A stretch of DNA of 64,000 nt, taken from assembly GCF_000189635.1 (NCBI RefSeq), contig NW_002476463.1, forward strand, positions 310,001 through 374,000. Reading direction: 5' to 3'. The DNA comes from Tetrahymena thermophila SB210. Taxonomy: Eukaryota; Ciliophora; Oligohymenophorea; Hymenostomatida; Tetrahymenidae. The notes below the pieces were generated by a model that was not told the DNA's origin, did no database searches, and saw only the letters and a program-made list of their open reading frames with translations. Positions 27,117 through 53,660 of the stretch are shown here, piece after piece (positions within the stretch are counted from its first letter, which is position 1; the number at the start of each line of letters is the position of its first letter). A program made the position numbers and the translations under genes.

Positions 27117-27995
27117 TCATTATTACATGCTATTTTTCCTATATTTTTTGTAGCACTATGTAAAATTTTGAAGGATTTGCTTTTCTTATGCTAAAATCAT
27201 CAAATTGATTTGTTCTATGTATTAGTTTTTGTTTTTAATTTTAGAGTCTTAAAGCCATAGCTTTTCAGAATTCTTCAAAAAGTGATTGAATATTTTTTGC
27301 AGATTTCTGTTTTTACTCAGGTTTTTAATCTTGAGGTTGTATCTACCACATCTTGCCAAATTTGTAGAAACTCTTTGCTAAATGCGCTCAAAAGTCCACT
27401 TATTTTCACTCAAATTTTCATATACACTCATCAAGAAAGTATCTTTGCACTCGATAATATGTTTCTTAAAAGCTGATAAGATATTCTTATACAAATTATG
27501 TTTACTTTTAGAAATAAAGTTAAAAATTTATTAATTTTCTTAATGATTAATTCCATTTTATTCGTAAAGAAAGTTTGATACAACTTCAATCACTGGTACT
27601 TTCTCTTTATATAATTGAATATCAGTTAAATTTTTAAATAGTAACTAATTTATTTACTTATTCCTTCATATTGATTTATGCATCTGGTTTTTGCCACATG
27701 ACTCAACTTTTTAATTTAACTTGGAAATTTGTTAATATAATCCCTATATTAATCGAATTGTATATTCCAAGATAAATCTTTTCTATACTTACAAATATTT
27801 TCATATTAATTTTCATCCTCATTTTATTTGGGGGGGGGGTCACAGCTGGGTGTCGAACTTTTCGGTACGGCAGTCATAGTAATTTTTATTAGGGAAAAAA
27901 AAAATGAAGACCGCACCCGGCTGTGACCCCCCCCCCTTTTATTTAATTTAATAAAGATTTTCATCTGTTTGAGCAAGCAAAAGATAGTTAATCAT
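27117..27995 (-). CDS. Array small-gene family, copy E, interrupted by a transposon
   Basis: Exons 27995-27658 and 27604-27117. Exon 2 (488 nt) is fully open to TGA with VPVIEVV, KKHIIEC, LSENKWTFERI, LKIKNLSKNRNL, HFLKNSEKLWL and QCYKK. Exon 1 carries a 107-bp inverted-repeat element plus an 8-bp target duplication (115 bp, not a multiple of three), about 51 codon positions of coding sequence upstream and the rest downstream. As it stands, translation enters the element and meets TGA. If the element and one duplication are left out, the frame is uninterrupted: 236 aa, class II. So this is a copy broken only by the insertion. If the element is removed during development, the gene would be whole; that is speculation. 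Confidence 0.75.
27822..27944. mobile_element. 107-bp GC-rich TIR element (MITE-like) with 8-bp TSD
   Basis: The element is 27830-27936. It begins with ten G then TCACAGC, T, GGGTG. The far end is the reverse complement: ten G, TCACAGC, C, GGGTG. That gives 23-bp terminal inverted repeats (27830-27852 and 27914-27936) with one T/C mismatch. The flanks are TTTTATTT on both sides (27822-27829 and 27937-27944), while uninserted paralogues, for example around 38720-38740, have TTTTATTT once: a perfect 8-bp target-site duplication. No coding capacity. The 8-bp duplication fits hAT, P, Merlin or KDZ/Zisupton transposases; the ten-G end does not let me choose. It is by far the most GC-rich stretch in the window. 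Confidence 0.9.
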
Positions 27996-29446
27996 TTTTT
28001 TAATTATTTAAAAGAAAGTTTTAATAAAAGTTATATTTATGTTTGATAATTATTATTAAATCTTCTTTAAGTTTTCAATTTCTGTTTTTACAATAAATGA
28101 TGAGTTAAAAATTGGATTAAGTTATATAGAATTAGTCATCTCTATTTAAAAATAATTAACTTAAAATATACAATTTTTTCTTTTAAATTACAGATTCAAA
28201 AAAACTTAATGGCTTAAGAAATTAAATTTAAAATAATTCTGAAAATTAGATTATATTTACTTTTTACAAATAAATATAAAATTAGTTATTATTAACTTTT
28301 TCATCATCTAATATTAGAAGCTTACAAATTGCTTTGAGTTTTAAAAATAATAAGTAAACTGTAAATAAATGTATATAAATTAATTAAATCCCCTAATATT
28401 CTTTTTCCCAGCTAATTTGAAATAATAATTATGAAAAAATGATAATGTTTATACTCCTTCACTTATAAATTTTAAATGATCTAATTTAAAAATTTAGTAA
28501 TAAATATTATTTGTTGCTTTTTTTCAATCAGTAAGCATTATAATAAATTTTACTAATTTTTTTTTTGAGAAAACTAGATTAATGGCTAGTAACAAAATTT
28601 TCTTAAAATGATAATTATTCATAAAATTTAAATTTTAATTGACTTTATTTAATATAACTCTGCTTTTATGCCATAAAACCTTTTAAAGTTAGTTTTAAAA
28701 ATTGTTTTACTTTAGTATCTAAATTTATTACATTTTGTTGTTAATAAATATTGATTTTTACAGATATTTTATTAGTATTTTAAAAACTTGTTTACAATTA
28801 AGTCATAATTAAAATTTCAAATTGTGATTCTTCTCTTAATTCTTAATTTGCTCAGTATTTGAAAGCAGATAGATAAATTTTTACAATTATTAAATAACAA
28901 AATCTTGAAATTCTTTTTATAACTTTGGTTTTATTTTATTAATTATAACTTGCTATTTAGAAAATAATACTAAATATTAAGTATTTAAGCTTATTTTAAT
29001 TTATATTATCTATGATACTATAGGAATCTAAAATTTTAAAGAAATTTATATTTTTTAACATACCATTTTTATATGAATTAACTCCTATTTTATTCAATAA
29101 TTTAACATTATAATAGATATCTCCTTATGTTTACATAAAAGAAAAATAAATATTGCTCTTGAATGTAAAGATTTATCAGCCACTGGAAGAATTTTTTTAA
29201 TTTAAATAAACTTCACAAAAAAATCAGTTACAATGAAGAGAAAAATTATAATATATAAGAGTAGAAATAATTATAATTGAATATCATAAGATTTAAATTA
29301 TAAAATATAAAAATACTTTTTCTATTTTGTAATTGTAGGCCAAATATTTTAAATTATAATTTTTGCTAATTTATATTTAGTAAAACTTTTATTATTATGA
29401 TTATTATTAATATAGAAATAGCTTATTTTTTTATCACTAATCAATC
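27996..29446. repeat. Class II upstream flank, recurs at 38.8-39.9 kb and 46.9-48.1 kb
   Basis: No gene. About 1 kb upstream of the class II small gene is shared among three places. Examples: AAGTAAACTGTAAATAAA near 28350, 39130 and 47405; an AGCTAATTT..AATAATTAT stretch; CTTGTTTACAATTAAG near 28787; and TTTAAGCTTATTTTAATTTATATTATCTATGATA near 28985, 39808 and 48028 (partly). It marks the left border of a duplicated block that also carries the divergent paralogue. Confidence 0.55.
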
Positions 29447-52877: not shown

Positions 52878-53660
52878 TCATTTCTTCATGCTATTTCTCC
52901 TCTACTTATTATAGCAATTTGTAAAATTTTGAAGGATTTGTCTTTCTTATGCTATAACCATCAAATTTATTTATTAAATGTAATAGTCTTTATCTTTAAT
53001 TTTAGAATCTTAAAGCCATATTTTTTCAGAGTTCTTCAAAAAGTAATGAAATATTTTTTTCAGATTTCTGTTTTTACTAAAATTTTTAACCTTGAGATTG
53101 AATCTTCCGAATATTGCCAAATTTGTAGTTACTCTAAGCTTAATGTGTTCAAAAGTCCACTTATCTTCACTCAAATTTTCATAAAAGCTCATCAAGAAAG
53201 TATCTTAACACTCGGTAATATGTTTCTTAAAAGCTGACAAGATATTCTTATACAAGTTATGTTTACTTTTCGATATTAAATTAAAAATTTATTAATTTTC
53301 TATAGGATTGACTCCCTTTTATTCACCAATAATATTTGACACAACTTCAATCATGGGAACTTTTTCTTTATATATTATTTTATTCCAGTTAAATTTATTA
53401 AAAAGCAATTAATATTTACTTATTCTTTCATTATGATTTATGCATTTTATTTTTGCCATACGACTCAGTTTTTTAATTTAGTTCGGAAATTTATTAATAT
53501 AGTCCTTATATTAATCAAATGGTATATTCAAAGATATTTGAGATTATTAATTTAGTTATATTCTATACTTACAAGTATTTTAGTTTTAATAATCATCCTC
53601 ATTTTATTTTATTAATTAAAAGTTTTCTTCTGTTTTAGCAAGAAAATGATAGTTAGCCAT
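52878..53660 (-). CDS. Array small-gene family, copy I (242 aa)
   Basis: Exons 53660-53420 and 53365-52878; 729 nt, 242 aa, open to TGA. Starts MANYHFLAKTEENF where other class I copies start MINYHFLAK; then NTCKYR, VPMIEVV, SAFKKHITEC, LSEDKWTFEHIKLRV, NLKVKNFSKNRNL, YFLKNSEKIWL and NCYNK. Differences from neighbours are substitutions only. Function unknown. Confidence 0.8.

Follow-up and report, generated by a model that had tools for sequence, protein, structure and literature searches.

A G-tipped insertion in the somatic genome of Tetrahymena thermophila as the probable remainder of a longer germline transposon

The stretch of DNA analysed here (the window) comprises 64 kb of a 1.87-Mb contig (C91) of Tetrahymena thermophila, and was examined together with the whole genome assembly searched, 101 Mb in 445 contigs. 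From about 12.4 to 64 kb the window contains numerous copies, tandem or dispersed and 70–90% alike, of a unit with a DUF4441 gene; a paralogous ORF at 52878–53813 matches PF14536 (DUF4441), and TPR-repeat stretches are present among the window ORFs besides the DUF4441 genes. One gene copy is interrupted by a 107-bp insert situated about 20 codons past a conserved M-NY-- motif, the presumed start. Because the insert and its duplication add 115 bp, the frame of the host gene is shifted; a second frame change in this copy, near 27590, represents either decay or an intron. The features of the locus are as follows.

27117..28307, minus strand: interrupted host gene copy of the tandem DUF4441 family, approximate span, from ORFs
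27822..27829, no strand: target-site duplication, left copy, TTTTATTT, read directly; single in six of eight informative paralogues
27830..27839, plus strand: left G10 tip, the outermost element bases; proposed boundary signal with the IES (internal eliminated sequence) side inward, from its spacing compared with published G-tracts
27830..27852, plus strand: left terminal inverted repeat, 23 bp, 22/23 against the right end, by end comparison
27840..27879, plus strand: left arm interior to the G-run, 40 bp, the same in the copy on contig C439, by copy comparison
27878..27883, no strand: putative junction after loss of a germline middle, placed between 27879 and 27880 and uncertain by a few bp
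27880..27926, minus strand: right arm interior to the C-run, 47 bp, matched at 47/47 on C40, 47/47 on C9, 46/47 on C179, and over 45 bp on C439
27914..27936, minus strand: right terminal inverted repeat, 23 bp, by end comparison
27927..27936, minus strand: right C10 tip, G10 on the opposite strand, read directly; proposed second boundary signal
27937..27944, no strand: target-site duplication, right copy, TTTTATTT, read directly

The insert (27830–27936) is 54% GC, and the surrounding 2-kb windows are 18–24% GC. It starts with ten G and finishes with ten C, its ends are inverted repeats identical at 22 of the 23 outermost positions, and a perfect 8-bp duplication of TTTTATTT abuts it on either side (27822–27829 and 27937–27944); re-reading thus agrees with the initial annotation, which had described a GC-rich insert with 23-bp inverted ends and a single mismatch. 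Runs of eight G or eight C within the 64-kb window are confined to the two insert tips (6 overlapping matches; shuffle mean 0.01).

The claim that the target is single in uninserted paralogues was examined by fusing the flanks at the target and aligning them back onto the window. Eight paralogous places cross the target in long alignments, and six of these (alignments beginning near 38.6, 61.3, 24.0, 43.8, 19.2, and 13.2 kb) are short by exactly 8 nt and so have one target copy; in the two further informative paralogues (46.9 and 53.5 kb) the gaps are bigger or lie elsewhere, and a ninth alignment (48.4 kb) is short and uninformative. Judged from these sequences, a G10-tipped element with inverted ends did insert into TTTTATTT, duplicating it, and the transposon-type insertion that had been proposed is upheld.

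The macronuclear (MAC, somatic) genome of Tetrahymena thermophila is one from which thousands of germline segments have been removed. CCCCAA/TTGGGG telomere repeats are present on six of the eleven contig ends that were read, representing six contigs: at both ends of C91 and C439, at one of the two C40 ends, and at the one C188 end read; neither end of C9 or C179 has them, and the second C40 end also lacks them. Stretches of TERT exon taken from the genome searched agree letter for letter with T. thermophila TERT (PDB 6d6v); the unspliced intron and the non-coding flank that were compared along with them do not. We take the genome searched to be the macronuclear one. It contains piggyBac-type sequences at three places, on C209, C114, and C411.

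A search for GGGGGGTCACAGC with no more than one mismatch returned 29 matches genome-wide, and none for the reversed control; extra copies came to light when the 107-bp element and the C396 element served as queries, and the copy lists are lower bounds. Two-ended copies of this TCACAGC family with intact runs are present at four loci, all four of which have their own perfect 8-bp duplication:

C91 (the window copy): TTTTATTT
C439: AAACTAAA
C188: AAATATAA
C396: GTATTAAT

Inverted ends (22/23) and a duplication of fixed length, 8 bp at each of these loci, are the properties of a TIR-type DNA transposon; at a fifth locus, C60, both ends are present and the duplication is missing, which counts against the origin that we propose below. 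The C188 (158 bp) and C396 (155 bp) elements have a common middle and the appearance of short elements that are intact, and MITE-like members appear to exist in the wider family. The C439 element (110 bp) is the only near-identical two-ended copy, and it differs from the window copy exactly at the internal junction point, the sole difference interior to the G-runs: in right-arm orientation the window copy has TA where C439 has CCAG. Counted inward from the G-runs, the two are the same over 45 nt on one side and 40 nt on the other. Because C40 and C9 likewise have TA at this point, a division into 47 + 40 bp can be made for the window copy and one into 45 + 44 bp for C439. Among the matches listed, every remaining copy is one-ended and lacks a partner end within 10 kb.

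These one-ended copies tend to stop at a similar place. We scored 31 arms, of which 10 belong to two-ended loci (C91, C439, C188, C396, and C60) and 21 are one-ended, the copies on C250 (a stretch of N), C172 (a one-mismatch match), and C230 (internal repeats) being left unscored. In 14 of the 21 one-ended arms, those with a clear family arm, similarity stops 42–55 nt interior to the G-run (mean 47.9, sd 3.4), a subset that was picked after inspection of the data and in which the end of the C189 arm was put at 52 by eye, the program having continued through poly-A to 75. The seven arms left out are C46 (which stops at 38 despite a G5), C60a (46, weak), C195 (55, with a different start), C8 (a different interior), and C1, C18a, and C18b (61, 71, and 70, with no intact G5 beside the end); adding C46, C60a, and C195 gives a mean of 47.6 (n = 17, sd 4.3), and adding C1, C18a, and C18b as well gives 50.6 (n = 20). 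The arms of the two C18 copies and of C1, which lack the intact G5, are thus kept for 61–71 nt instead of about 48, a departure that counts against the origin proposed below; on the other hand, a cut positioned by the G-run would lead one to expect longer arms here, with three cases too few for a test. C40, C9, and C179 share the right arm of the window copy at 47/47, 47/47, and 46/47 nt, beyond which their DNA is unrelated, and C24 and C424, of an unrelated-looking family, also part ways 47 nt interior to the G-run. A C-run of at least three lies 41–46 nt past the break in four of the 14 one-ended copies, as if facing a second boundary, and one of the 14 has a C-run at 16 nt; no C-run of at least three is present at 41–46 nt in the other ten, which counts against the origin proposed below. 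At C10:310307–310524 a TCACAGC arm faces, 41 nt past its break, the C10 run of a different element end, and this appears to be a case of two unlike G-tipped ends joined.

Stops at this distance from G-rich tracts recall a known class of programmed deletion. The available text on the M IES (PMC4780704) describes A5G5 tracts 45–50 bp outside it, with the G side inward, that fix its boundaries and, in G-quadruplex form, bind Lia3, and that of Lin et al. 2019 (PMC6547420) describes G-rich inverted repeats about 51 bp from the ends of LIA3-affected IESs; in vitro, the breaks made by Tpb2 have 4-base overhangs, and end-points mostly vary by a few bp (accessible parts of PMC3861120 and PMC5666084). 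The elements described here resemble Lia3-controlled IESs, as far as these texts describe them, in having inverted G-tracts with G toward the excised DNA, about 40–50 bp from a junction that varies by a few bp. They differ in that an inserted element ends in the tracts, which lie immediately within its 8-bp target duplication, and in that no A5 stands outside the G-run, its place being taken by TTTTATTT. The missing A5 counts against our reading, yet it is compatible with Lia3-type membership, since the G-rich motif described for this class in the text available from Lin et al. is a broader one. The published distance of 45–51 bp is matched by proxy only, through the one-ended arms (42–55 nt, n = 14), the inferred 40 + 47 bp of the window copy, and the genome-wide pair spacing of 91.8 ± 3.6; the left arm of 40 bp is below the published range, which counts against our reading.

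We propose, with a probability of roughly 83%, that a longer DNA transposon of the germline (MIC), with a boundary signal in its tips, has left the 107-bp insert as its somatic remainder. The window is somatic, the one-ended copies stop alike, and C439 differs at that very point, which together suggest that two ends have been joined by programmed deletion. In the germline a longer transposon would occupy the same site, with G-tipped ends on either side of a middle part. During MAC development this middle would be excised as an IES, Tpb2 making the cut as it does for most IESs. The G-tracts, the outermost element bases, would serve as flanking signals through which Lia3 recognises the boundary, with cuts about 40–50 bp inward from each tip; once the two ends were joined, the target copies would enclose G10 + 40 bp + 47 bp + C10. 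The TA and CCAG alternatives would then be variable junctions, as expected. In one-ended copies the excised segment would pass the other tip and reach another boundary, and the relatives of about 155 bp may be too small for cutting and so remain whole. The initial annotation had regarded the 107 bp as a whole element with an autonomous partner sharing its ends; relatives with the same ends do exist, but from the arm breaks, the C439 difference, and the somatic nature of the DNA, the 107 bp is probably not a whole element, and a longer one, if it exists, should be found at the same site in the germline genome.

The arrangement seems to extend beyond the TCACAGC family. A search with runs of eight found five places (one with N between the runs) and none for the control. 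Pairs of G5...C5 at a spacing of 76–105 nt number 46 genome-wide, compared with two for the reversed (C5...G5) control, and their spacings fall at 84–101 nt (mean 91.8, sd 3.6), a peak whose lower bound is given only by the empty 76–83 nt part of its own bin. At 106–135 nt there are eight pairs and three in the control; among the eight, C107 and C134 reuse a C-run of counted pairs and three belong to the TCACAGC family. A perfect 8-bp duplication lies just outside the runs in five of the 46 pairs (C91, C439, C424, C406, and C241, the last, AATTTTTT, being of low complexity), where 0.09 are expected from a null of 0.0019 per pair obtained by exchanging right-hand flanks between the 46 loci (2070 pairs, with up to 2 bases of slack into the runs). 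Extended inverted ends, defined as at least 12 of 20 matching positions interior to the five G, are present in 12 of the 46 pairs and in about 1.4% of swapped pairs. The duplication is missing from 41 of the pairs and the extended ends from 34, so that most of the pairs bear no transposon signature, which counts against the origin proposed above; the pairs lacking any transposon signature may be ordinary or older boundaries. Because some belong to repeats or palindromes (C22/C41/C138, C9/C113/C426, and C441, possibly intact short elements and not scars), the 46 pairs are not fully independent. On C9, C113, and C426, and at one C194 end, the repeat has its G5 tract within a longer inverted repeat (RTTAACTCTTT...), so that the tract is not terminal, and C441:25788–26011 is a near-perfect palindrome with G6 and C6 runs about 94 nt apart that extends beyond the runs. 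Several distinct families seem, on sequence comparison, to have G-tipped ends at a pair spacing of about 92 nt.

The principal alternative is that the 107 bp is a complete, non-autonomous MITE, the same in germline and soma, with its transposase encoded elsewhere. Its two ends and perfect duplication, the near-identical 110-bp copy on C439, and the short, apparently intact elements on C188 and C396 would all be accounted for in this way. We nonetheless regard it as unlikely, since the copies on C40, C9, and C179 hold 46–47 identical nt of one end with the other end absent, the arm break falls just where the window copy and C439 differ, the 14 one-ended arms are clustered at 42–55 nt, and one spacing is common to G5...C5 pairs with many different sequences, for which one MITE family alone would not account. 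Arms stopping near 48 nt could instead belong to different elements that share only an inverted repeat of about 50 bp, an arrangement against which we note that the one-ended copies among the matches listed have no partner within 10 kb.

It is also conceivable that the G-tracts belong to the host as boundary signals of ordinary IESs, unlinked to transposon ends, and that the duplication arose by chance. G-tracts are treated as flanking sequences in the accessible text of PMC4780704 and PMC6547420, and most of the 46 pairs have neither duplication nor long inverted ends; however, perfect duplications at four of four intact-run two-ended TCACAGC copies and at five of 46 pairs against 0.09 expected, the single target copy in the paralogues, and the extended inverted ends of 12 pairs make this very improbable. 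That the homopolymer runs are an artefact of assembly or cloning, a concern raised with the initial annotation and prompted by how exceptional such runs are within the window, is scarcely credible given identical tips at many loci with differing flanks and duplications, a reversed control of zero, and paralogues that show the empty site. The probable remainder of a longer germline transposon is thus the reading that we retain.

As to what kind of transposon this might be, Merlin (IS1595-like) elements have inverted ends of 24–462 bp that start with GG, make 8- or 9-bp duplications, and occur in ciliates, according to the available text of PMC8101967. The window element is like them in its GG-starting inverted ends and 8-bp duplication, and differs in that its ends open with ten G, match over 23 bp, and have no transposase linked to them; by ends and duplication size it fits as a candidate Merlin. 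The PF12762 (DDE_Tnp_IS1595) profile has three weak matches in the genome, one above the cut-off, which are Merlin-like transposase relics:

C116:725124–725270
C132:35508–35696
C64:201375–201692

The C116 and C132 relics are related to one another. A Merlin-profile transposase had been among the autonomous partners suggested for the element; the three relics are rejected in that role, no run of five G or C being present in their 3-kb loci.

Two other systems invite comparison, in each case as the accessible text presents it. The terminal regions of transposable elements were noted in 2016 to be kept in the T. thermophila MAC (PMC5182062, Hamilton et al.), a likeness in that ends remain in the soma after incomplete removal, and a difference in that the text available there links no G-tract, boundary signal, or target duplication to them. 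In the Tpb1/Tpb6-dependent exonic IESs, with piggyBac-like ends, transposon-type inverted ends similarly serve programmed deletion, but there the target is TTAA and excision is precise, whereas here there is an 8-bp duplication, both ends remain, and junctions vary among copies. The available text of PMC6547420 and of the Ltl1 paper (PMC6698652) offers, as speculation only, a transposable-element source for boundary signals, or a transposon origin common to IESs under the same regulator. In the accessible parts of the literature searched, G-tract boundary signals are nowhere reported to be the termini of transposons with target duplications; a published supplementary TE library may include such elements.

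The G-tipped elements bear on the origin of the sequences that set IES boundaries. Because the G-tracts lie directly inside a target duplication at the window copy, C439, C424, and C406, the tract is indicated to have arrived by insertion at each, and this is evidence, drawn from sequence comparison, that boundary-type signals would have come as transposon termini at several loci. A tentative extension, whose chances we place a little short of even, is that several unrelated germline transposon families have terminal bases that form the Lia3-type boundary signal, such that each insertion brings its own pair of cut-limiting signals and spares the host DNA. If so, many Lia3-dependent IESs would have fossil transposon tips as their G-rich flanks, and either Lia3 would have come from an end-binding factor or it would have selected for transposons that retained G-tipped ends. 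A transposon carrying its own limit on a host-directed deletion would be a case of mutual accommodation, in which a clean cut benefits parasite and host alike.
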